A stretch of 44,722 bases of DNA from contig JAPLCX010000109.1 in the NCBI GenBank assembly GCA_026392035.1, forward strand, positions 1 through 44,722. Reading direction: 5' to 3'. The notes beneath the pieces are model-generated. The model saw only the letters and a list, made by a program, of their open reading frames with translations, had not been told where the DNA came from and did not search any database. Source of the DNA: Candidatus Auribacterota bacterium. Lineage in GTDB: Bacteria > Auribacterota > Tritonobacteria > UBA1439. A program made the position numbers and the translations under genes. Shown one piece after another: positions 1 through 44,360 of this stretch; the first letter of the stretch is position 1, and every line of letters starts with the position of its first letter.

Positions 1-722
1 CCCAATTGATTCACTCTATTAACCTGGTCGACGATGTTGTTCGACGAATCGCGCAACACCAGCAGCTCGCCGCCATCGTCAAGCTCCACGGAGCTGTCAC
101 AATAATCTTCCACAATGTCATTATCACTGAATACATTTGAATTATCGGCGATAATGAAAAACCCTTTTGCGGCGATGCTTTTCCCCGACGGTATTGTAAT
201 CGCATTCGATCCGGCCCCCAATCCCTCTATCTGCCAGCCGGAAAGATTTACAGACGCATTCGTGTTGTTGTATAGCTCGATCCACTCATGCTCAGGGTTG
301 GCCCCTGTTCCCATCCAGGCAACCTCGTTAATCACCACGCGCGGGGGCTCGATGACACTGTTGAATCTCCTGGGTGTACCGTCGATTGGATCACCAGTCG
401 CGTCCAATCCGTTACGCCAACCCAGATTATTGTTTTCCCAGTTCCGATCATAATCTCCCGATGCGGGATTAATCCTCTCCATGCTCAGTTTTGGCGGTGG
501 GGCATTCTCCCCGGCCGGCCAGCAATTGTACTCCGGATGGTTATGATCTTCCATGTTAGCGCTGTCTATGACGCCGCCTTCTCGATCTTTAAGCCGCAGT
601 TTCTCGCCGTCATTGTCGAGCCCATACCCTCCGTAGGGCATGATCAGATCCGCGGCAATATCAGTCACTGCTCCGTCGTGCCGCTCTATCAGATAGTAAC
701 CTCCGGGTCCTGTGGACTCGCC
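1..722 (-). pseudogene. 3' remnant of the giant PQQ/lamin-tail surface protein gene, out of frame with its upstream part
   Basis: Reading the minus strand from about 722 to the left edge gives an open frame with no stop. It encodes the second half of one lamin-tail-like (LTD) domain (GGYYLIERHDG, then IAADLIMPYGG and SMERINPASGDYD) and then a further domain starting VVINEVAWMGTGANPEHEWI. These match the two preceding INE-type domains of the gene encoded at 689-3607, but the frame is shifted relative to it. The natural explanation is one gene with an out-of-frame deletion near 705-740 that removed roughly 40-50 codons of an LTD domain. LTD modules are immunoglobulin-like folds found in nuclear lamins and in many bacterial secreted proteins. 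The gene continues beyond the window, so its true C-terminus is not seen. Confidence 0.75.
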
Positions 723-3607
723 GCTGTCCCCATCCAGGCAACTTCATTGATAACAATATCCCCGGCGTTCACAGTGTAGATGGACGAGCCGGCTGAGACG
801 CTGTTGAGATTTTTGGGCGTGCCATTGATAGGATCACTGTTTGCATCCAGGCCGTTCCTCGCGCGCCTGTCGTTATAGATCCAGTTGGAATCAATTCCCG
901 GCGAGGCTGGATTGATCCGCTCCATGCTGTATTTTACAGGCTCGTTGCTGCCCGCAGGCCACGGCCCGCCATCGCTGTTCGCCGAGTCTATAGTCTGCCC
1001 CGTGTGATCTTTCAGCTCAAGGCCCTCTCCATCATTGGAGAGAGCGCCCTGATAGATCTTGTCAGCGGCAATGTCGCTGATTGTCATGTCATCCCCGCAT
1101 TCGAGAAGGTAATAGCCATGTGATGGAATCGTCCCGCTCAGAGTAAGATACGGGCTCCCGCTCGATGCCCGAAGCGTCCAGCCGGCAAGGGATATAGCCG
1201 CGGCAGTATTGTTGTACAACTCGATCCACTCGTCATTGAAACTCGCCGTGGTCCCCATCCAGCCGATCTCGTTGATCACGACACTGAGCGGATCGGCGGG
1301 CGGGGGCGTCGTGGTCGGCGTGGCCGTAGGCGGGCCGCCGGAGGTGATCGTCGGCTCCGGAGTGTCCGTTGCCGTAGGTGTAGGAGAGATTGTCGGAGTG
1401 GGCGTTATCGTCGGCGTATCCGTCGGCGCGACAGTCGGCGTTTCCGTGGGCGTTGGAGTAGGCTGTACCCCGACCGCCATCCCGGGATTCGGTATCTGAG
1501 GCTCGAAATCCGCCGCGTTATCGCCGGTATCGCTGTATCCCGCCGGATGCCTTCCAAGACTCAAGCCCGCTCCGGAGCTTCCCGCCGCCGTTCCTTCGCC
1601 GTGGAAATATGCGAAATGATTATTATCGCCCGGCGAATCAAGATCGTACGCGAGAGAATCCACCACCTGTCCCCACGCATCCCTCAGCTCCAGGTTATCA
1701 GGGCCGTTCGCGAGATCGATCTCCTCCGCCGCGTAATCATAATTCGCAACTTCCGTCTGCCCGTTATTCAAATCGGCGACGACCAGCATCCCTAATCCGT
1801 TCCCGTCGTCAGGAATAATCGCATGCTCCGGGAATCTGTAACTCTGTGTCTCCTCTCCGGTGTCCCCGTCAATCCCCACGAGATACCATTCCCCGGCGTC
1901 GGTCCCCGCAGGGCCGATTATCTCGATGAATGCACGCCCGTCGTCGTACCCGGCGGGATTGTAATACAGCTCGCTGATCTTCACTTCAGGCGGCGCAGGC
2001 GGAGTGGGTGTGACGCTCGGCGTCGCGCCGGGTGTCGGTGTTGGCTGCACGCCTGCCGCGGCCCCTGGATTCGGCGCCTGTGGCTCAAAATCAACCGCAT
2101 TGTCATCTGTGTCGCTGTTCCCCTCAGGATGCCTCCCCAGGCTGTATCCCTCGCCCGAGCTCCCCGCCGCATTCCCTTCACCGGCAAAATGCTCGAAGTT
2201 GAAGTTCGAGCCGGGGGATACCGCATCGTATCCAAGCGCATCCACCACGTTTCCGTCTATGTCCTTAAGCTGAATATTGTACCTGCCGTTCGGCAAATTC
2301 ACATTCGGCGCCGTATAGTCGGCATGTGTCACATAAGTTATGCCTGAGGCATCGGTATCGGCCACCACGAGCAATCCCAACCCGTTCCCCTCGTCACTGA
2401 ATAGTGCGCCTGCCGGGAACATGAAGATGAGTTCCGACTGTCCACTATCGGGGTCGACTCCCATCAGCCGCGAGCCGCTTATATCCGTTCCCGCAGGCCC
2501 CACCAGCTCTACAAACGTCCGCCCCTCATCCTGCCCCAGCGCGTCATACAGCACCTCGCTTATTTTTACGGGGTCAGAGGCGGGCGGCTGCACGCCTGCC
2601 GCGTAACCCGGATTCGGGTAATCCACCACAAAATCATATGTGTTATTGTCCGTATCAAAGAGCGCCGGATATCTCACAAGGCTGAATCCTTCTCCGGATG
2701 TTCCGGCGGCTGTCCCCTCACCGGCAAAGACTCCGAAATGGCTGTTGTCTCCGGGCGTGACACCGTCATAAGCGAGCGCGTCAATAATCCTGCCGTAGTT
2801 ATCTATAATCTGCACATTATCAGGGCCGTTGGAAAAGTCCATGTCGGGATCGGTGAAGTCGTAGTGCGAGACATAGGTGACGCTATCAGCCTCATCTGCC
2901 ACCACAAGCAGCCCCAGCCCCCCGCCATCATCGGGGAATACCGAGCCCGGCGGGAATGTGAACTGCTCATCAATACTTCCATCATCTCCGTCAATCCCCA
3001 CTATCTGCCACCCGCTGATGTCCCTCCCCGCAAAGCCCACCAGCTCTATAAATGAGTGCCCATTATCCTCGCCATCCGGGTTATAAAGGATTTCGCTTAT
3101 CAAAACTATCGGCAGCTCGGGTTCAGGCGTGGCTGTTGGGATAGCGGCACGGAGCGCATAGACGGCATTGTCGTGGGAACCGACATAGACACGTCCGTCA
3201 TCGCCGATCGCCGGGGAAGAGTCAAACCAGCTCCCGCTCTCGTAGCTCCCGGCGAGCGTCCCGTCGGAATTGAGCGCGTACAACATCTTGTCCTGCGCGC
3301 CCACGTACACCATCCCGTTGCCGCCTATCGCGGGAGAGGAATCAATGTTCATGCCCGCTCCGTAGCTCCAGAAGAACGCTCCCACAGAGGTCAACACATA
3401 AAGGTTATTGTCCCTGGAACCGGCATAGACATTTCCGGAAATGCCAATCGCGGGAGACGAGTACACATCGGACCCGGTCAGATATGACCAGGAGAGCGCA
3501 CCCGCCGATGTGCATGCATAGACATTGTTATCATAGCACCCGATGTAGACGCTGCCGTCGGAGCCGATCGCGGGGGATGATTGCAGTGTGCCGCCTGTCC
3601 TATAGCT
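689..3607 (-). pseudogene. Middle part of the giant surface protein: last PQQ blades plus lamin-tail-like domains
   Basis: This segment is in the same frame as the CDS ending at 3608 and follows its TGA directly, so it is best read as the continuation of that gene. The first ~160 codons are beta-propeller blades of the pattern SSPAIG...VYVGS.DN.LY.L.S.G.L.WSY. Three LTD-like domains then begin ISEILYNPDG, ISEVLYDALG and ISELYYNPAG. Two long Pro/Thr linkers and two further LTD domains beginning INEIGWMGT and INEVAWMGT follow. The last is truncated and runs into a stop at 689-691. The first internal Met is at 3466, with no convincing ribosome binding site, so independent translation is doubtful. 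The domains suggest an adhesive or scaffold-like extracellular protein. Its function is unknown. Confidence 0.7.
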
Positions 3608-5497
3608 TCACACGAGCGATCTGCCGGAGTTGATTGCATACACAGTGTCCTTATCACCGGTGCCCCAGAATATCTGACCGTCAGTCCCCACCGCGGGCGA
3701 CGAGGGATGAGCATTGGTCGCCGCGCCGGTAGTGAAGCTCCATGCCATTTCCCCCATGGAGCCGTCCCACAGGCTGAACGCTATGAGGCTCCGCCGCGCC
3801 TGGACATAGACTTCACCCGCAGTGCTTATCACGGGGGACGATGCCCAGGTGTCCTCCGCTCCATCGCCCGGATGGGTATAGCTCCACAACAGGCCGCCAG
3901 TGGAATTGAACGCATAGAACCGGTTGTCTTTCGAACCGATGTAGACTTCCTGAGTGGCGCTGATCGCGGGAGACGAGGATATGGCGCCTTCGGTCGCGTA
4001 GCTCCATGCAAGCGCTCCGGTTGAAGAATACGCATAGAACAGATTGTCGTCGCTCCCGACGTATATTGTCCCATCCGTACCCATGGCGGGTGAAGAGGCC
4101 ACGTTGTCAGCCGCCAGATAACTCCACGCGAGCGCGGGCAGCGAAGGCCCCGCGTAGCTACTCCGGCCCGTATGCTGGAGATCGGAATGGAACATCGGCC
4201 ACGGGCCCTCCGGCCTCGGCGTCGGCGTGATGGTCGGCGTCGGGGTAATCGTGGGGGTTTCAGTGGGGGCCGTGGGCGTGGGGGTCGGTGTCTCAGTGGG
4301 CGTAGGAGTTTCCGTCGGGGTCTCGGTCGGAGTAGGTGTAACTGTGGGGGTTTCCGTCGGCGTCAATGTGGGTATCGAAGTCGGCTCGGTGAGCACGTAC
4401 AGGAAGGTATCATCTGAGCCTACGTATACATTGCCCGCATCTATTGCCACAGACGATTCGACCACACCGCCAGTCGCGTATGTCCACGCCAGTGTGCCAT
4501 CAGAGTTGAGACTATAAATTATGTTATCCCTGGATCCAACATACACCGTATCAATTCCGCTCACTGCCGGCGAGGAAGAAATATCGCCGCCAGTCACATA
4601 GCTCCAGGAGAGCGCCCCGCTCAGGTCAATCACGCAGTACAGACAGTTGTCATCAGAACCCACGTACACCGTGTCGGTGCTTACCGCAGGTGATGAGGAA
4701 ATAGGCCCTGAGGCGGCATAGCTCCATATCAAGGCGCCGGCTGAGTCAATGCGGTAGAGCTTGTTGTCTCTCGAGGCGACGTACACCGTGTCGATTCCGC
4801 TCACCGCAGGAGCGGAAGAGATATCACCAGCCGTTGCGTAGCTCCACGAGAGCAGGCCCCCCCCGTCAATCACGCAGTACAGACGGTTGTCATCAGAACC
4901 CACGTACACCGTGTCGGTGCCTATGCCTATCGCAGGCGACGAAAAGATAGGCTCGGAGGCCGCGTAGCTCCACAATAATGAACCGACCGAGTTGAGACTG
5001 TAGAGCCGGTTGTCCTCTGACCCCACGTACACCGTGCCGGTGCCGCTCACCGCAGGCGAGGAGGATATGTCGCCGCCCGTCACATAGCTCCACAGCATGG
5101 CGCCGCCTGAGTCAATGCTGTAGAGGCAGTCGTCATCGGCACCGATGTTCACCGTGCCGGCGCTTATTGCCGCTGATGAGGAAACAGGCCCGGAGGCGGC
5201 ATAGCTCCACAGCAATGCGCCGCCTGAGTCAATGCTGTAGAGTCGGGCGTCCTCGGCGCCCACATAGACGGCGCCTGAGGAACTCAACACGGGAGCGGAG
5301 GAAATCCCACCGCCTGCTCCGTAACTCCAACGTAGCGCAGGGATGAGAGGGCCTACGGCGGAGCTCTTACCCGTGCGTTGAGGGTCATTACGGAACATCG
5401 GCCACCAGCCGCTGGCGGGATAGACGCAGTGGAGAATGATGCACGAAACAATGAGTGCGAGGACAGTCAAACGACAGCGAGGAATTGACTTTTTCAT
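3608..5497 (-). CDS. Secreted PQQ-like beta-propeller protein, N-terminal part of a nonsense-interrupted gene
   Basis: The start at 5497 is chosen because a strong Shine-Dalgarno (AGGAGG, 5' of GGGCGC) precedes it and the product begins with a signal peptide (MKKSIPRCRLTVLALIVSC..., about 27 residues). The first propeller opens with WPMFRNDPQRTG and contains about nine blades with the BamB/PQQ-enzyme-like signature (SSPA...VYVGS.DN.LY...G.LLWSY). A Pro/Thr-rich linker spans about residues 366-429. A second propeller opens with WPMFHSDLQHTG. The frame ends at TGA 3608-3610, exactly where every other blade has the Trp of WSY, and stays open for another 970 codons. These blades lack the recognisable quinoprotein dehydrogenase active-site context, so a structural or binding role is more likely than redox catalysis. 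Confidence 0.8.
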   Translation of the reverse strand: MKKSIPRCRLTVLALIVSCIILHCVYPASGWWPMFRNDPQRTGKSSAVGPLIPALRWSYGAGGGISSAPVLSSSGAVYVGAEDARLYSIDSGGALLWSYAASGPVSSSAAISAGTVNIGADDDCLYSIDSGGAMLWSYVTGGDISSSPAVSGTGTVYVGSEDNRLYSLNSVGSLLWSYAASEPIFSSPAIGIGTDTVYVGSDDNRLYCVIDGGGLLSWSYATAGDISSAPAVSGIDTVYVASRDNKLYRIDSAGALIWSYAASGPISSSPAVSTDTVYVGSDDNCLYCVIDLSGALSWSYVTGGDISSSPAVSGIDTVYVGSRDNIIYSLNSDGTLAWTYATGGVVESSVAIDAGNVYVGSDDTFLYVLTEPTSIPTLTPTETPTVTPTPTETPTETPTPTETPTPTPTAPTETPTITPTPTITPTPRPEGPWPMFHSDLQHTGRSSYAGPSLPALAWSYLAADNVASSPAMGTDGTIYVGSDDNLFYAYSSTGALAWSYATEGAISSSPAISATQEVYIGSKDNRFYAFNSTGGLLWSYTHPGDGAEDTWASSPVISTAGEVYVQARRSLIAFSLWDGSMGEMAWSFTTGAATNAHPSSPAVGTDGQIFWGTGDKDTVYAINSGRSLV

Positions 5498-5533
5498 GCG
5501 CCCCCCTCCTCTGCTTCGGCGCCTGAGAAACAA

Positions 5534-8305: not shown

Positions 8306-8482
8306 GTGCACCTGATCTCTCTGATCAACCTGATTTTTCAGAGTAATCAGGTCAATCAGGTGCTCATCTCAAAGTTCATTGAAATTCCGAATAGGGAGAT
8401 CCCACATACTCGTCATTTGAATCTTGTCATTGGGGATTTGGGATTTGTTTGGGATTCGGAATTTGGGATTTGGGATTTATTC
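8306..8482. repeat. Short-word repeat island (CCTGAT/TCAGG words and GGGATTT words)
   Basis: Two blocks of reiterated words lie between smpB and the PEGA lipoprotein gene. The first (8308-8367) is made of CTGATCAACCTGAT / AATCAGGTCAATCAGG words that face each other. The second (8419-8480) is made of GGGATTTG words separated by a few bases. The GGGATTT word also occurs, in opposite orientation, directly in front of recR (13610-13632). No reading frame of interest is present. Confidence 0.6.
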
Positions 8483-23473: not shown

Positions 23474-23673
23474 GTAACTGCTCAGGAGCCAGAATTCAGG
23501 AGTCAGGAGCCAGGAGTTGGAATGAGGACGCCGGCGGCGACATTTGAGGACTTGGGATACGGCGATGTTTCCGAGTTAATGCAGTTACTCGAAGAGGTCA
23601 GCAAGCTCCTGGAAGCTTATGCGCGATCCATTCCGGATTCTGGCTCCTGACTTCTGACTACCTGAGTAGTTAC
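23474..23673 (+). mobile_element. 200-bp TIR element, copy 1, carrying a 42-codon S23-like ORF
   Basis: The ends are GTAACTGCTCAGG and, inverted, CCTGAGTAGTTAC: a terminal inverted repeat of 13 bases with one mismatch, followed on both sides by AGGAGCC/AGGAGTC words. It is about 98% identical to the copy at 27180-27379 (three differences by eye). No target duplication is evident at this copy. The interior contains a small ORF (23522-23650). The element has no transposase, so it must be mobilised in trans. Confidence 0.8.
23522..23650 (+). CDS. 42-residue S23/four-helix-bundle-like peptide within mobile element (copy 1)
   Basis: The ATG at 23522 is preceded by AGGAG at five bases' spacing. 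The peptide begins MRTPAATFEDLGYGDVSEL and continues LMQLLEEVSKLLEAYARS. The second half resembles the C-terminal helix of the four-helix-bundle family typified by the 23S rRNA intervening-sequence protein (LGY..., EEV..LL..L.RS). It lacks the first three helices, so it is either a remnant or a minimal peptide. The same frame is intact in copy 2. Confidence 0.45.
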   Translation: MRTPAATFEDLGYGDVSELMQLLEEVSKLLEAYARSIPDSGS

Positions 23674-26123: not shown

Positions 26124-27119
26124 GTGAGAACGAAGAAAGCGGCAAAGGTGTACCGAGCCTTGTCGGAGGCATGGGAGCGCAACAGGATGCTGTATCTCTG
26201 CGTGCTCGCGTCCGTGCTCGCTCATTTCTTCGCCCTCGTATCCGTGGGGCCTCCGTGGAGGGCACGGGAGTCGCGGTTAAAGCCCCGGGCGGTGAAAGTC
26301 GTCTCGCTCAGGATCATGCCGAGGATGGTCGCCCCCGCGCACCCCGAGGAGAAGCGCCCGTCGGCACCGACCGTCAGCGCGCCCCCCGCGCCTGCCCCCC
26401 GCAAGGCCCCGGAGAAGGTGTATACGCGGGAGGCTGAACGGGATCTCGCACGACGGCGTTCGCAGGAGGTCATGGGCAAGTTCGCCCGCCCACCGGCCGC
26501 AAGGGCGAGGGACGTACTGTTGGAAAAGGGCAAGGAGGCCCGGGCGTGGGCGTCGCGGGAGTTTGCCGCGTATGAGGAGTCCCTCACGCATGAGGAGGCG
26601 GGTGAAGTGGGCTTCCGGCGGGTCGTAGATCTTAAGGCGAGCTCTGATTCCCAGATCTCCCGGCTCATGGAACACTACAAGATGAAGATCGGGTACGGCA
26701 GTCGCGCCGTCACCGATCTTAACCTCCAGTTCACCTCCGCGTGGCTCCTCACAAAGGGGCAGATCAGGAACTATCTCGCGAGACACACCGTCGCAGGGTC
26801 CAGGAAGATCCTCGCATCCCCGTCCCCCGGGGTATCGGAGGTAGCGCTCAGGGAGTCGGGGGAGGGGGCGCCGCGGCCGTACATCGAGCCCACTATCGCC
26901 GCGCTCGCGGCGCTTCTCGCGGCGGAGGAAAAATATTTCTCCTCCACCGGGGCGTCGCCGGAGGAACTGGAGTGCCTGGTGTTCATGCCGGTCTGGAGCT
27001 ACCGCGGGCCGGCGTTCACCGTCGCGCGGGCGGAGAAGAAAGGCGTCCCGCAGAAAGAAAAACAGAGGGACGGGATAAGGATGGCGGATGGCACGGTGGC
27101 ACAGGATGCGCGCAGATGA
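26124..27119 (+). CDS. TonB-like single-pass protein (proline-rich periplasmic arm)
   Basis: The start is a GTG with AGGTGAG upstream. Residues 1-22 are cytoplasmic and basic. One transmembrane helix (MLYLCVLASVLAHFFALVSVG) follows, then a basic and proline-rich stretch (APAHPEEKRPSAPTVSAPPAPAPRKAPEK). That architecture matches TonB/TolA-type proteins. The C-terminal part (about 140-331) is not recognisable as a TonB C-terminal domain. Its neighbours are a secreted TPR protein upstream and exbB-exbD downstream. The inference is that ExbBD energises this protein to act on an unknown envelope partner. A mobile element lies between it and exbB. Confidence 0.55.
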   Translation: MRTKKAAKVYRALSEAWERNRMLYLCVLASVLAHFFALVSVGPPWRARESRLKPRAVKVVSLRIMPRMVAPAHPEEKRPSAPTVSAPPAPAPRKAPEKVYTREAERDLARRRSQEVMGKFARPPAARARDVLLEKGKEARAWASREFAAYEESLTHEEAGEVGFRRVVDLKASSDSQISRLMEHYKMKIGYGSRAVTDLNLQFTSAWLLTKGQIRNYLARHTVAGSRKILASPSPGVSEVALRESGEGAPRPYIEPTIAALAALLAAEEKYFSSTGASPEELECLVFMPVWSYRGPAFTVARAEKKGVPQKEKQRDGIRMADGTVAQDARR

Positions 27120-27171: not shown

Positions 27172-27387
27172 ACAACAGGGTAACTGCTAAGGAGCCAGAA
27201 TTCAGGAGTCAGGAGCCAGGAGTTGGAATGAGGACGCCGGCGGCGACATTTGAGGACTTGGGATACGGCGATGTTTCCGAGTTAATGCAGTTACTCGAAG
27301 AGGTCAGCAAGCTACTGGAAGCTTATTCGCGATCCATTCCGGATTCTGGCTCCTGACTTCTGACTACCTGAGTAGTTACACAACAGG
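27172..27387 (+). mobile_element. 200-bp TIR element, copy 2, with 8-bp target-site duplication
   Basis: The element body is 27180-27379, with ends GTAACTGCT...and...AGTAGTTAC. It is flanked on both sides by ACAACAGG (27172-27179 and 27380-27387), a perfect 8-bp duplication that shows recent insertion at this site. It carries the same 42-codon ORF as copy 1 and lies in the gap between the TonB-like gene and exbB. Confidence 0.85.
27228..27356 (+). CDS. 42-residue S23/four-helix-bundle-like peptide within mobile element (copy 2)
   Basis: Same frame and Shine-Dalgarno as copy 1 (AGGAG, then TTGGA, then ATG). It differs by one residue (AYSRS for AYARS). Conservation of frame and ribosome site between the copies is compatible with translation, but two near-identical copies cannot prove selection. 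Confidence 0.45.
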   Translation: MRTPAATFEDLGYGDVSELMQLLEEVSKLLEAYSRSIPDSGS

Positions 27388-28918: not shown

Positions 28919-29230
28919 TGGGGTCAAGTCTTTATCCTTGACAATTGGAAGCATCGTGAAGCGCCGGCGTTTTCCGGACAAGGCACTTCGGCTCATTCAG
29001 CCTCCGGCTTCATTCGCTCAGTGCCAAAATAAAAAGAGCCCGCATCAGGGCTCTTTTTATTTCGGCGCCCCACACGGTTGCCAGTTGGAACCAGATTGCT
29101 ACTTGGCTTCGGGGAATCAACACCCTTCGGGAAGCAGAAGCTGCTTGTGCGGTATAGAGGCTCGTCCCCACCTGCTTCCTCGCCTACTCAGAACGTCCCT
29201 CTTGGGATTGGAACCGAGATATTGATAGAT
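28919..29230 (+). repeat. R-element copy 1 (complete)
   Basis: Order of parts: GGGGTCAAGTCTTTATCC, then TTGACAATTGGAAGCATC, then a dyad GGCACT...AGTGCC (about 28982-29025), a long hairpin with A/T flanks (29024-29064), and then a block starting GGTTGCCAGTTGGAACCAG. The frame 29065-29157 encodes APHTVASWNQIATWLRGINT... and ends TAG. It lies at the 3' side of the minus-strand PQQ gene. Confidence 0.75.
29024..29064 (+). terminator. Bidirectional terminator-like hairpin in R-element copy 1
   Basis: AAAAGAGCCC-GCATCA-GGGCTCTTTT with A/T extensions gives an almost perfect stem. It has a T-tract on the plus strand and an A-tract that serves the minus strand, where it could end transcription of the PQQ gene from 31021. 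Confidence 0.6.
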
Positions 29231-29350: not shown

Positions 29351-31021
29351 TTAGTGCAGATTGAAGCCGTTCGAAACCTCGACCGGCGGCTTGGCCGGGT
29401 ACTGCCTGTTGTCGCGACGGATCAATGCCGCAGCGAACACCCAGCGCCCCGCCGCGCCTCTTGGCGCCCTGAATGAGAGATTGCCGCTCGACTTGACGCC
29501 GTTGACGGGGAATTTCACGCGAGAATATGTCGGCTTGAGAGTTCGCGGATTATAGCGCACGGGTTTGAGCTTCGAGTTGAAGATGAACAGGGCCTTGCTG
29601 GATACAATCTGCTGCACGGTCAATGGACTATTCTCCGAGGGCGGATTGAGGACGGCGGCAATGTACACCGCGCAGGGCACGCCGGTGAACCCGTACCTGT
29701 CCTGGAAAGATTCCCATGTGAGGTTTATCTTCTCTCCTGGATTAAATACTGCTCCATTGGTAACTCCCAGCTCAAGGTAGTACGGGGTAGGTGTCGCGGT
29801 GGGCGTAGATGTCGAGGTGATAGTGGGTATCGGTGTTGTGGTCGGCACTTTAGGTGTCGGGGCGATCGTGGGTGTCGGTGTAGTGGTCGGCGCCTGCTGA
29901 ATGCTATAGAGGCAATGATCATACGAGCCAACATACACCTTCCCATCCGAACCTATCGCGGGCGAGGAATATATCCAGTCCCCGGTTTTATAACTCCAGT
30001 CAAGGCTCCCGTCTGAATTGACGCTATAGAGTGAATTATCCTGTGAACCAACATACACCTTCCCATCCGAGCCTATCGCGGGCGAAGAATATATCAAGTC
30101 CCCGGTTTGATAACTCCAGTCAAGGCTCGCGTCTGAATTGATGCTGTAGAGGGAATGATCCTTAGAGCCAACATATACCTTTTCATCCGAACCTATCGCG
30201 GGCGAAGAAGATATCTGGTCTCTGGTTTTATAACTCCAGTCAAGGTCCCCTTTTGAATTGATGCTGTAAAGGGAGTTATCCAACGAGCCAATATACACCT
30301 TCCCATCCGAGCCTATCGCGGGCGAGGACCATTCCCATATTATGGCGTTCCCTGTTTTATAACTCCAGTCAAGGCCCCCGTTTGAATTGATGCTGTAGAG
30401 GGAGTTATCCCACGAGCCAACATAGACTTTCCCATCCGAACCTATCGCAGGCGAGGAATAATATATCTGGTCCCCGGTGTTATAACTCCAGTCAATGCTC
30501 CCGTTCGAATTGATGCCATAGAGGGATTTATCGTCTGAGCCAATATACACCTTCCCATCCGAACCTATCGCGGGAGAGGAACGTATGGAGAATCCGGTTT
30601 TATAACTCCAGCCGAAGGCCGCGTTGGAATTGATGCTATAGAGGGAATTATCTGCAGAGCCAACATACACCTTCTCATCCGAACCTATCGCGGGAGAGGA
30701 ATCTATCAAGGCCGCGGTTCTATAACTCCAGTCAAGGCTCGCGTCCGAATTGATTCTATAGAGGCGATTATCGGGATAGTAAGAGCCCACATACACCCAC
30801 CCGTCCGAACCTATCTCGGGAGAGGAATTTATCCAGCTCCCAGCTTTGTAGCTCCACGCCAGAGACGGTATGGACGGGCCGGCGTAATCGCTCAGGCCCG
30901 TGTGCCGGAGATTCTGGTGAAACATCGGCCACTGGCCAACAGGTTGAGCAGATGCAGGATAAACGAAAAAGGCAGCGATAAAAAGAGACGCCGCTGCTGA
31001 GATAAATGTACATGACTTCAT
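29351..31021 (-). CDS. Secreted PQQ-like beta-propeller protein with C-terminal accessory domain
   Basis: The 556-residue product has a signal peptide (MKSCTFISAAASLFIAAFFVYPASAQ) and GGAGG five bases before the ATG. Residues 30-380 start WPMFHQNLRHTG and hold about nine blades ([24 protein letters not shown]). The blades are nearly identical at the DNA level, suggesting recent expansion or homogenisation. A Pro/Thr linker (TTTPTPTIAPTPKV...) follows, then the accessory domain (LELGVTNGAVFNPGEKINLTW ... GAAGRWVFAAALIRR). It is a paralogue of 42099-43871 and of the giant gene at the left edge. Likely an extracellular ligand- or surface-binding protein. Confidence 0.8.
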   Translation of the reverse strand: MKSCTFISAAASLFIAAFFVYPASAQPVGQWPMFHQNLRHTGLSDYAGPSIPSLAWSYKAGSWINSSPEIGSDGWVYVGSYYPDNRLYRINSDASLDWSYRTAALIDSSPAIGSDEKVYVGSADNSLYSINSNAAFGWSYKTGFSIRSSPAIGSDGKVYIGSDDKSLYGINSNGSIDWSYNTGDQIYYSSPAIGSDGKVYVGSWDNSLYSINSNGGLDWSYKTGNAIIWEWSSPAIGSDGKVYIGSLDNSLYSINSKGDLDWSYKTRDQISSSPAIGSDEKVYVGSKDHSLYSINSDASLDWSYQTGDLIYSSPAIGSDGKVYVGSQDNSLYSVNSDGSLDWSYKTGDWIYSSPAIGSDGKVYVGSYDHCLYSIQQAPTTTPTPTIAPTPKVPTTTPIPTITSTSTPTATPTPYYLELGVTNGAVFNPGEKINLTWESFQDRYGFTGVPCAVYIAAVLNPPSENSPLTVQQIVSSKALFIFNSKLKPVRYNPRTLKPTYSRVKFPVNGVKSSGNLSFRAPRGAAGRWVFAAALIRRDNRQYPAKPPVEVSNGFNLH

Positions 31022-34227: not shown

Positions 34228-34400
34228 GGGCCGTTTGGGGTCAAATCTTTATCCTTGACAATTGGAAGCATCTTGAAGCGCCGGCGTTTTCCGGACAAGG
34301 CACTCCGGATCATTCAGCCTCCGGCTTCATTCGCTCAGTGCCAAAATAAAAAGAGCCCGCATCAGGGCTCTTTTTATTTTGGCGACGCAAACAGAGTTTG
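34228..34400 (+). repeat. R-element copy 2 (5' half)
   Basis: It carries GGGCCGTTTGGGGTCAAATC, TTGACAATTGGAAGCATC, the GGCACT...AGTGCC dyad and the hairpin (34341-34382), then diverges shortly after GGCGACGCAAACAG. The 31-codon frame is lost here. It lies between two minus-strand secreted-protein genes. Confidence 0.75.
34341..34382 (-). terminator. Bidirectional terminator-like hairpin in R-element copy 2
   Basis: The stem is CCAAAATAAAAAGAGCCC paired with GGGCTCTTTTTATTTTGG, with loop GCATCA. It is downstream of no plus-strand gene and upstream of the GloVer gene on the minus strand, so it would mainly block read-through from the NUP-like gene (36069-34552). Confidence 0.5.
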
Positions 34401-34551
34401 CTCAAACCATCCAGATTGTTCTACCTAACTTGATACATCATTGCAAAAAGAGGAATCCCAGCCGCTGATTCCCAAAGAAATCTTCTCGCTATTCCCGGCG
34501 GTCGAAATGGCTAGTTTTGAGTGCCCGGCGCCAAATTCCAGGAAAAGTCAG

Positions 34552-41663: not shown

Positions 41664-41980
41664 CGGGCCGTTTGGGGTCAAATCTTTATCCTTGACAATT
41701 GGAAGCATCTTGAAGTGCCGGCGTTTTCTTGACAAGGCACTTCGGCTCATTCAGCCTCCGGCTTCATTCGCTCAGTGCCAAAATAAAAAGAGCCCACATC
41801 AGGGCTCTTTTTATTTTGCCGACCCATACGGTTGCCAATTGGAACCATATAGTCGCTTGGCTTCGGGGAATCAATATCATTCGGGAAGCAGAAGTGTCTT
41901 GCGCGGTCTAAAAGCTCCTCCCACCTGCTTCCTCACCTGCTCAGAACATCCTTCTTACCTTTGGAACCACGATTATAGCG
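41664..41980 (+). repeat. R-element copy 3 (complete)
   Basis: It has all parts: GGGCCGTTTGGGGTCAAATC, TTGACAATTGGAAGCATC, the GGCACT...AGTGCC dyad, the hairpin (41778-41818), the GGTTGCCAATTGGAACC block and the frame 41819-41911 (PTHTVANWNHIVAWLRGINI..., TAA). It ends just before the conserved block upstream of the PQQ gene. Confidence 0.75.
41778..41818 (+). terminator. Bidirectional terminator-like hairpin in R-element copy 3
   Basis: Stem CCAAAATAAAAAGAGCCC with GGGCTCTTTTTATTTTG, loop ACATCA. It lies between the divergent genes 41172 (minus) and 42099 (plus), where a terminator has no upstream plus-strand gene to end. A role other than termination should be considered. Confidence 0.45.
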
Positions 41981-41986
41981 AAATAT

Positions 41987-42056
41987 ATATTGCCCGCCCC
42001 CCCCGTGTATGGTATTCATGGTGTGGATAATGGCTTGTGACCCTGCTGGGCGCGAC
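41987..42056 (+). promoter_or_regulatory. Conserved upstream block, copy 2
   Basis: It reads TATTGCCCGCCCC..., GTATGGTATTCATG, GTGTGGATAATGG, GGGCGCGAC, and aligns with 31138-31209. It lies 43 bases before the ATG of the secreted PQQ gene at 42099. Confidence 0.35.
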
Positions 42057-42098
42057 CGAGTCGAAAGAGGGGAGCAGCGCAAACCGAGGGAGGAAGAG

Positions 42099-43871
42099 AT
42101 GAGGGCAAAGCTGATCATGGCATTGAGCGCGGCGGTTATGATTTCGGCGATATCCTTAACATTTGGCCAGCTCATGATCAGCCCATGGCCGATGTTCCAT
42201 CAAAATGCCAAGCACACGGGCCTGAGCATTTATTCGGGGCCTCCGACAGTCTCTATCGCATGGAGTTATCGAACGGGGGATGAGCTGGAATCATCTCCTG
42301 CCATAGGCTCTGACGGGAGAGTCTGCGTGGGATCTTATGACAACAATGTGTATGCCCTTACTTCGACAGGTTCACTTACATGGTCATATGTGACGAATGG
42401 CAATGTGCAGTCATCTCCCGCCATTGGCTCTGACGGGAGAGTCTCCGTGGGGTCAAGTGACAACAATGTGTATGCCCTTACTTCGATAGGTTCACTTACA
42501 TGGTCCTATGTGATGGTGGACGAGGTGGCGGCAGACGCAGTGTATTCATCTCCTGCCATAGGCACTGACGGAACAGTCTTCGTGGCGTCTAAGAAACAGA
42601 GGGTATGTGCCCTCACTCAGACAGGTTCACTTACATGGTCCTATAGGACGAGCAACGAGGTGAGATCATCTCCTGCCATAGGCTCTGACGGGAGAATCTA
42701 TGTGAAGTCCTTTGATAAGAGCCTCTACGGCCTCAATTCGACAGGTTCACTTACATGGTCCTATATGACGGGAAGCCCGGGAAGCGATGCCTATGAGGAA
42801 TCATCTCCTGCCATAGGCTCTGACGGGAGAATTTACGTGGGGGCAGGTGACAACAATCTGTATGCCCTTACTTCGACAGGTTCACTTACATGGTCCTATG
42901 CGACGGGATTGCATGTTAATTCATCTCCTGCCATAGGCTCTGACGGGAGAGTATACGTGGGGTCTTATGACAACAATGTGTATGCCCTTACTTCGACAGG
43001 TTCACTTACATGGTCCTATGTGACGGGACTGGATATTTATTCATCTCCTGCCATTGGCTCTGACGGGAGAGTCTACGTAGGGTCAACGGATTACAGGGTG
43101 TATGCCCTCAATTCGACAGGTTCACTTACATGGTCCTATGCGGCGTGGCGGGAGATTTGGTCATCTCCTGCCATAGGCTCTGACGGGAGAGTATACGTGG
43201 GGTCTTATGACACAGTGATCTACGAGTTTCAAAGCGAGCCATCGGCAACGCCAACCGGCACACCCACCAATACGCCCACGATCACGCCGACTCAGACGCC
43301 GACTCAGACGCCGACTATAACCTCCACGCCGACAAATACTCCGACAGCGACGCCAACCGGCACACCCACCGATACGCCCACGATCACGCCGACGGTGCCG
43401 ACGCCCACGCCGACGGCCCAGATGTCTCCTACGTCGACACCTTCGGCTACCCCGTCTGCGACGGGGGCGCCCACGGCCACGCCGATACCGCCACTGATCA
43501 TTGTTCCGGGGGCATTGACGGCCGGGCAGACCTTCTCGCTGTACGTGGCACTGACCGAGGATATTACCCAGCCATTCGACTTCTATATCCTCGCCGACAC
43601 CCCCGCGGGGCCCTACACGCTCTACCTGAACGGCAAGATCAAGAAGGGAATCACGCCGCTCTACAAGAACGTGAAGAGCTTTACTAAGGATTTCATAACA
43701 ACGGTGCGGTCGGCGGTCAAAATCCCATTATCTATGAAGGGGAAGACGATCACCTTCTACACCGTCGCAGTTAATGCGGGCAAGAAACCGCCGGTGAGGA
43801 AGCTCTCTGAGCTCACGCCGACCACCAAGTATGTGAACCTGATGGCTAAGGCCGCAGCAGTGGTTAACTGA
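42099..43871 (+). CDS. Secreted PQQ-like beta-propeller protein with C-terminal accessory domain
   Basis: The start at 42099 has GGGAGG six bases upstream and a signal peptide ([23 protein letters not shown]). The first motif is [12 protein letters not shown], followed by about nine blades ([32 protein letters not shown]) encoded by nearly identical ~120-base DNA repeats. Residues 387-470 form a Thr/Pro linker ([18 protein letters not shown]...). The accessory domain ([20 protein letters not shown] ... [21 protein letters not shown] ... [13 protein letters not shown]) closes the protein at 590 residues. A strong terminator follows. Confidence 0.85.
42290..43215 (+). repeat. Near-identical ~110-130-bp coding tandem repeats (propeller blades)
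   Basis: Units share TCATCTCCTGCCATAGGCTC and GGTTCACTTACATGGTCCTA with only local differences. The degree of identity at synonymous positions points to recent unit duplication or gene conversion, and predicts length variation between strains. Confidence 0.75.
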
Positions 43872-44011: not shown

Positions 44012-44360
44012 CGTCTGGGGTCACTTGACAATTGGAAGCATCTTGAAGCGCCGGCGGTTTCTTGACAAGGCACTTCGCACCGAGCGAAGCCGAGGTGCTC
44101 AGTGCCTGAAGGGACCTCAGCTCGCTTCGCTCGCTCAGTCCCAAAAATAAATGGCGGGCCAACTTCAAAAGGCCCGCCCTTTATTTTTGGCGACCCAAAC
44201 GGTTGCCAGTTGGAACCAAATACGCACTTGGCTTCGGGGAATCGATACCTTTCGGAAATCAGTAGCGTCATGCGCAGTATAGAGCCTCATCCCCCCTGTT
44301 TCCTCACCTGCTCAGTACATCCCTCTTGGGGTTGGAACCATGGATATAACATCAATGGGG
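44012..44360 (+). repeat. R-element copy 4 (complete, diverged hairpin)
   Basis: It has TTGACAATTGGAAGCATC and an enlarged dyad region (GCACTTCGCACCGAGCGAAG...). Its hairpin has a different stem sequence (GGCGGGCC/GGCCCGCC) inside the same AAAATAAA...TTTATTTT frame. The frame 44190-44282 (ATQTVASWNQIRTWLRGIDT..., TAG) is intact. Confidence 0.75.
44141..44190 (+). terminator. Terminator-like hairpin in R-element copy 4, with compensatory stem changes
   Basis: CCAAAAATAAA-T-GGCGGGCC pairs with GGCCCGCC-C-TTTATTTTTGG around an AACTTCAAAA loop. Compared with copies 1-3 both sides of the inner stem have changed together, which indicates that the structure itself is maintained. Confidence 0.55.

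Follow-up and report, generated by a model that had tools for sequence, protein, structure and literature searches.

The window analysed here, a whole stretch of 44,722 nucleotides, is contig C109 of a 2.8 Mb Candidatus Auribacterota genome in 122 contigs. In the intergenic DNA between a protein gene (26124-27119) and exbB (27411) lies a MITE of 200 bp, an ordinary mobile unit with an unusual ancestry. Its parts, and a sister copy elsewhere in the window, are as follows:

27172-27179, no strand: left copy of the 8-bp target duplication ACAACAGG, identical to 27380-27387
27180-27379: the MITE, 200 bp, starting GTAACTGCTAAGGAGC and ending CCTGAGTAGTTAC
27180-27188, plus strand: left terminal cap GTAACTGCT; left-end positions 1-13 are 87-100% conserved in 73 copies
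27189-27230, plus strand: left arm of six 7-bp words (AAGGAGC CAGAATT CAGGAGT CAGGAGC CAGGAGT TGGAATG), from the sequence and a lag-7 array scan of the window
27228-27356, plus strand: 42-codon fossil ORF, with an IVP N-terminus (codons 1-11) in frame with an IVP C-terminal helix
27252-27261, plus strand: deletion junction GAGGACTTGG with FEDL/xDL coding microhomology, from nucleotide alignment to the relatives L175 and L070
27335-27370, minus strand: right arm of words, reading CAGGTAGT CAGAAGT CAGGAGC CAGAATC CGGAATG, which pairs with the left arm
27371-27379, minus strand: right terminal cap GTAACTACT; right-end positions 1-13 are 93-100% conserved in 73 copies
27380-27387, no strand: right copy of the 8-bp target duplication ACAACAGG, identical to 27172-27179
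23474-23673, plus strand: sister copy, differing at 3 of 200 positions (98.5% identity)

The initial annotation had described a mobile element with terminal inverted repeats, a perfect 8-bp target duplication, a 98% identical sister copy and a 42-codon ORF with an AGGAG, and had found no transposase in it; all of these points hold. The AGGAG (27218-27222) is part of the fifth heptad word, a few bases before the start, and ribosome site and start codon both come from left arm words. The words are of seven bases, with one of eight in the right arm, and the arms pair as an inverted repeat (I8) of 83% over 29 nt. No ORF of more than 67 aa exists across the element, and thus no transposase is encoded inside it. 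The flanks of the sister copy are unrelated (TGGCAAGC / GAGTTTTG), i.e. it shows no duplication.

We observed 35 matches to the MITE in its own genome (G000), where full-length copies number about 14 and shorter or interrupted copies some ten; GTAACTRCTSAGG ends, exact or with one mismatch, occur 60 times compared with 19 for a reversed control pattern, so that chance does not account for them. Of two relatives, G001 and G004, both belonging to one other genus, G001 has roughly 65 copies and G004 fewer, and in one of the two there are about 130 MITE ends as opposed to 12 in the control. When the 26-base left end was compared with GTDB species, it was found only in two Candidatus Auribacterota MAGs from Lac Pavin sediment, the element's own record possibly having been left out, and a search of the MITE DNA in plasmids gave no match. 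The annotation had also proposed tabulating the 8-bp duplications: among 73 distinct copies from the three genomes, 27 are flanked by a perfect direct repeat of exactly 8 bp, and no copy by one of 5-7 or 9-12 bp. Flanks agreeing at 7 or more of 8 positions were seen at 42 of the 73, compared with only 12 of 7140 mismatched flank pairs. Such strictly 8-bp duplications are the mark of a DDE transposase with an 8-bp stagger. About 40% of the copies, the sister copy included, have no good duplication, and for these decay or recombination must be invoked. Copies with duplications of their own occur among the size classes of 200, 193, 182, 168 and 126 bp. Copies of 252, 224 and 161 bp have the caps and first words in common with the rest but lack the ORF, so that it is the caps that define the mobile unit.

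Fused-end units of only 23-33 bp were also seen (L089, at G000:C45:10321 and 24311, L090 and L093); two of the four have a duplication agreeing at 7 or 8 of 8 positions, and they are best read as deletions after insertion. In another case (L095:3442-3827) the right end of a MITE copy is interrupted by another small element, which has AAGGTGTGAAAAAATC ends and lies between two CTGAG copies; in L285 (856-2816) a weak PF01609 match is bordered by ends of similar sequence.

The annotation had held that mobility would be refuted if relatives lacked empty sites and no further copies had duplications. Besides the 27 perfect duplications, empty sites exist in G001. There, a 94-bp copy (L160, G001:C141) with the duplication CAACATTT has inserted into a repeat, and paralogs of this repeat on several other contigs continue through the site without a break. 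The sequence that a 186-bp copy (L154, G001:C135) interrupts is found again on that contig, 87.5% identical, unbroken and with a single AAAGGATA. The gene pair around the window element is kept without the MITE in three further genomes (G002, G003 and G006), where the intergenic regions are too diverged for a single target copy to be recognised.

The ORF product, MRTPAATFEDLGYGDVSELMQLLEEVSKLLEAYSRSIPDSGS, corresponds to the N-terminus and the C-terminal helix of intact relatives, joined at FEDL/xDL codons. Against the L175 protein, BLASTP gave 68% over 34 aa (E 2e-13), and E 6e-4 for the N-terminus; by nucleotide alignment, about 80 internal codons of the two parent relatives are missing from the MITE ORF:

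L175, in G001: intact, MREPARNFQDLIVWQKAHK...QDLHYGDSSELMPQLEEVSRLLESYSHSI, with CAGGAGT/CAGAATT-type arms
L070, in G021: frame now broken, MRQPATKFEELLVWQKAH...ARDLGYGDVSELWCLIEEVSKLLESYTRAI, with CAGGAGT/CAGAATT-type arms

Judged by these alignments, the ORF arose from a four-helix gene (23S rRNA IVP/S23, PF05635) by an in-frame deletion of its interior. A Pfam scan of the 42-aa product found no match, in keeping with a fossil fragment that is not a complete four-helix protein, and a home-made IVP profile gave only 7.8 bits, yet more than any of 2000 shuffles; the claim of descent therefore rests on the close relatives. The annotation was therefore right about S23 ancestry and the C-terminal helix, but the 11 N-terminal codons are kept as well, making this an internal-deletion product, and its neutral evolution shows that it is not a working small protein. 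The annotation had also taken at least one class of short-word repeats for the end of a transposable unit. The words do lie in the subterminal arms, but the CAGGAGT/CAGAATT heptads are inherited from the parent four-helix element and the mobile ends are the GTAACTRCT caps. The longer relatives that it anticipated exist, with a full four-helix gene (L175, L070 and loci on cyanobacterial plasmids), but GTAACT caps are absent from all those found, and none of the searches yielded a transposase with matching ends. The parent protein had no match in phages.

In several phyla, PF05635 genes are flanked by inverted arms in which words of 7 or 8 bp are repeated in tandem (L031-L039, L166-L184, L219-L245). 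Our survey took in 46 PF05635 loci, drawn from about 25 genomes in several phyla, and at about 38 of them, orthologs set aside, left and right arms matched beyond other-locus controls. In the 92 flanks the best self-match lag was 7 in 43 cases, 8 in 14 and 14 in six, with almost none at other lags, as against one of 56 control flanks of other genes at lag 7 and none of 56 at lag 8 or 14. The words are specific to the locus (ATGACAA, AAATCCC, GTATCTC, TAAGGAC, CCATGGT and so on). Between loci whose proteins are less than 45% identical, the arms resemble each other no more than background; above 60% identity, 32% of pairs reach arm scores of at least 20, some of these pairs being orthologous loci. 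IVPs of cyanobacterial plasmids (Aulosira, Trichormus, Scytonema, Nostoc) share 68-75% identity with the L175 protein, and their loci have the same CAGGAGT/CAGAATT words; word and protein lineage thus seem to have crossed phylum borders as a pair, Auribacterota and cyanobacterial plasmids being an example. We offer only as a conjecture that an IVP protein acts on the words of its own lineage. Independent support for the word-arm pattern at four-helix genes comes from the rRNA intervening sequence of Coxiella, where tandem heptamers (GACAGAT), variable in number among strains, precede the S23 ORF (PMC4990558); among the papers searched for any connection of heptads with four-helix genes, it is the only one to note heptamers. 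Different four-helix genes with different words lie in L035 (G000:C64:58736), L166 (G004:C94) and L167 (G001:C103), three loci from three genomes, in a gap between an ilvN-like and an ilvC-like gene that by eye appears to be the same one. In the window itself, a lone GGGATTT-like heptad array (8433-8479) lies without an adjoining four-helix gene and is possibly a stripped arm.

Intact four-helix elements can also be caught as presence and absence. Cyanobacterial plasmids provide one example, where two genes have one IVP element between them at L247 and L251 (filled sites) but none at L252 and L253 (empty sites), in surroundings that are about 98% identical; the filled site reads AAAAAGTAAT[AAATCAG...TTCTTCTTT]GTAATTAACAAATA and the empty one AAAAAGTAATTAACAAATA. 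Similarly, a type III-B CRISPR operon of Picosynechococcus PCC 7003 (L249) has an IVP element between its cas10 and cmr3 genes, and this element is absent from PCC 7002 (L257). One may consider that the MITE moves just as these elements do, with an IVP protein acting in trans on the heptad arms and the caps being incidental: arms and ORF remnant are common to both, intact IVP genes reside in all three MITE-bearing genomes, and word and protein lineage co-vary. However, duplications of 7-10 bp flank the arms of intact elements at none of 36 loci (a weaker test than that of the MITE, as arm ends are ambiguous by about one word), and at the best resolved empty site, that of the plasmids, the repeat is at most 5 bp, whereas the MITE makes strictly 8-bp duplications at caps that intact IVP loci lack. 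We therefore regard this route as improbable. On this evidence the parent element inserts differently from its capped offspring, and the 8-bp mode would have come with the caps.

Elements of the IS66 family have ends that start with GTAA and make 8-bp duplications (PMC11946415; PMC12888890). The MITE has both features, its ends being GTAACTRCTCAGG, and this points to an IS66-type transposase acting in trans; encoding no IS66 transposase, the MITE is at most a substrate of an IS66 and not an IS66 itself. A single IS66 is present in its own genome; it measures 1842 bp, stops at a contig end, and has ends (GTAATGGGTCAG, GTAATGGGTCAGTTTYGGTAGG) that have GTAAYnnnTCAG in common with those of the MITE. 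As the ends agree only at GTAAY and TCAG, this resident IS66 was rejected as the exact partner. G001, with its many copies, has only a weak IS66 remnant, and no IS66 was found in G004. No autonomous element with GTAACTRCTCAGG ends was seen at the orphan GTAACT ends inspected in the three genomes, and partial MAG searches of the own genome, the relatives and the phylum gave no cognate autonomous transposase with MITE ends. MAG assembly tends to lose IS elements. Among other candidates, an IS4-like (PF01609) element, L280, was rejected for its TAATACTGCTCATTT ends and 10-bp duplication, and the other PF01609 loci have no matching ends. That some DDE transposase moves the MITE in trans is very probable; that this enzyme is of the IS66 type we consider an even bet.

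The reading that we think likely is that of a MITE with a four-helix-derived interior and GTAACTRCT caps, moved in trans by a DDE transposase, for which the IS66 type is the best candidate. A four-helix (IVP/S23) element with heptad-word arms lost about 80 codons by in-frame internal deletion, giving the MITE interior. The caps, probably together with the first words, would be recognised in trans by the DDE transposase, most likely of the IS66 type, and insertion at 8-bp staggered cuts would leave the 8-bp duplications. More internal deletions would then produce the 126-bp and smaller forms, some of which spread. In this reading the anatomy, the copy number, the length of the duplications, the empty sites, the descent from an IVP gene and the neutrality of the ORF are established by the data, while the family of the transposase, its action in trans and the source of the caps are inferred.

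As a single plus strand, the MITE is predicted to form a long and very stable hairpin (z = -7.0), and it lies in intergenic DNA before exbB, so one may ask whether selection retains it for its hairpin, as a structural RNA or a regulatory repeat of the REP/ERIC kind, with its spread as a by-product. Such stability is what the inverted arms alone predict, the window contains no rRNA and no Rfam match, and 8-bp duplications, full-length inverted ends and empty sites are marks of DNA transposition; we consider this explanation very unlikely. Least credible of all is the view that the element spreads a small protein that has a function, despite a good ribosome site and a frame open in many copies, since Pfam has no match for it, other copies with the same caps lack the ORF, and the substitution spectrum is indistinguishable from neutral: variants in 31 ungapped copies comprise 32 synonymous, 69 nonsynonymous and 3 stop changes, where random hits with the same base spectrum would give 32.5, 68.4 and 3.1. 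The ORF is a neutrally drifting fossil, with no selection on the protein detectable in these copies.

The capped MITE resembles other bacterial MITEs mobilised by IS elements in being short, without a transposase, with GTAA inverted ends (IS66-type), 8-bp duplications and internal-deletion size classes, but no IS gave rise to its interior, which comes from an IVP/S23 gene element with heptad arms. The 23S rRNA intervening sequences with an S23/IVP ORF (Leptospira, Coxiella) represent its parent gene family, and the Coxiella one, with heptameric repeats before the S23 ORF and terminal inverted repeats, has the anatomy of the dispersed parent elements (PMC4990558); the window copy, in contrast, lies outside rRNA, is capped, has 8-bp duplications and retains of the gene no more than a neutral fragment. 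REP elements are not known to have fixed-length duplications. The 8-bp duplications of the window MITE set it apart from REPINs and REP elements with RAYT transposases (PMC3116915), which are likewise small, palindromic, non-autonomous and present in many copies.

Cyanobacteria have short tandemly repeated (STRR-like) heptanucleotides and small dispersed repeats. Heptameric intergenic repeats are known from Xanthomonas and Nostoc (PMC4692102). All of these share with the present arrays a seven-base period, an intergenic and partly inverted placement and very short mobile derivatives; no four-helix link was found for them in the literature searched, whereas here the arrays are the arms of four-helix elements, which possibly explains part of the unexplained heptameric repeats in bacterial genomes. 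Since the early 1990s it has been supposed that S23/IVP intervening sequences can move, and where they come from is still described as unclear (PMC4990558). In the present case the descendant of an S23/IVP gene element has demonstrably transposed. Its parents have a defined anatomy of inverted heptad arms, with a word that varies with the protein lineage, and near-identical empty sites in cyanobacterial plasmids, so that a vague question becomes testable by binding and mobility assays. Ancestry thus leads from a 200-bp element to a common four-helix element anatomy that includes the rRNA intervening sequences. More tentatively, and with the odds somewhat against it, IVP/S23 genes with inverted arms of 7- or 8-base words may constitute a widespread, cross-phylum mobile class with a particular matching word for each protein lineage; rRNA intervening sequences would be members that landed in rRNA, and the window MITE a deletion derivative with caps that an IS transposase had captured.

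A second dispersed repeat family (CTTGACAATTGGAAGCATC...) occurs in the window at 28919-29168, 34236-34485, 41673-41922 and 44024-44348 and includes a 44-bp palindrome, AAAAAGAGCCC..GGGCTCTTTTT. The window also has beta-propeller ORFs (PF13570/PF13360) at 689-5533, 29351-31021 and 42009-43871, several of them with internal repeat units of 120 bp.
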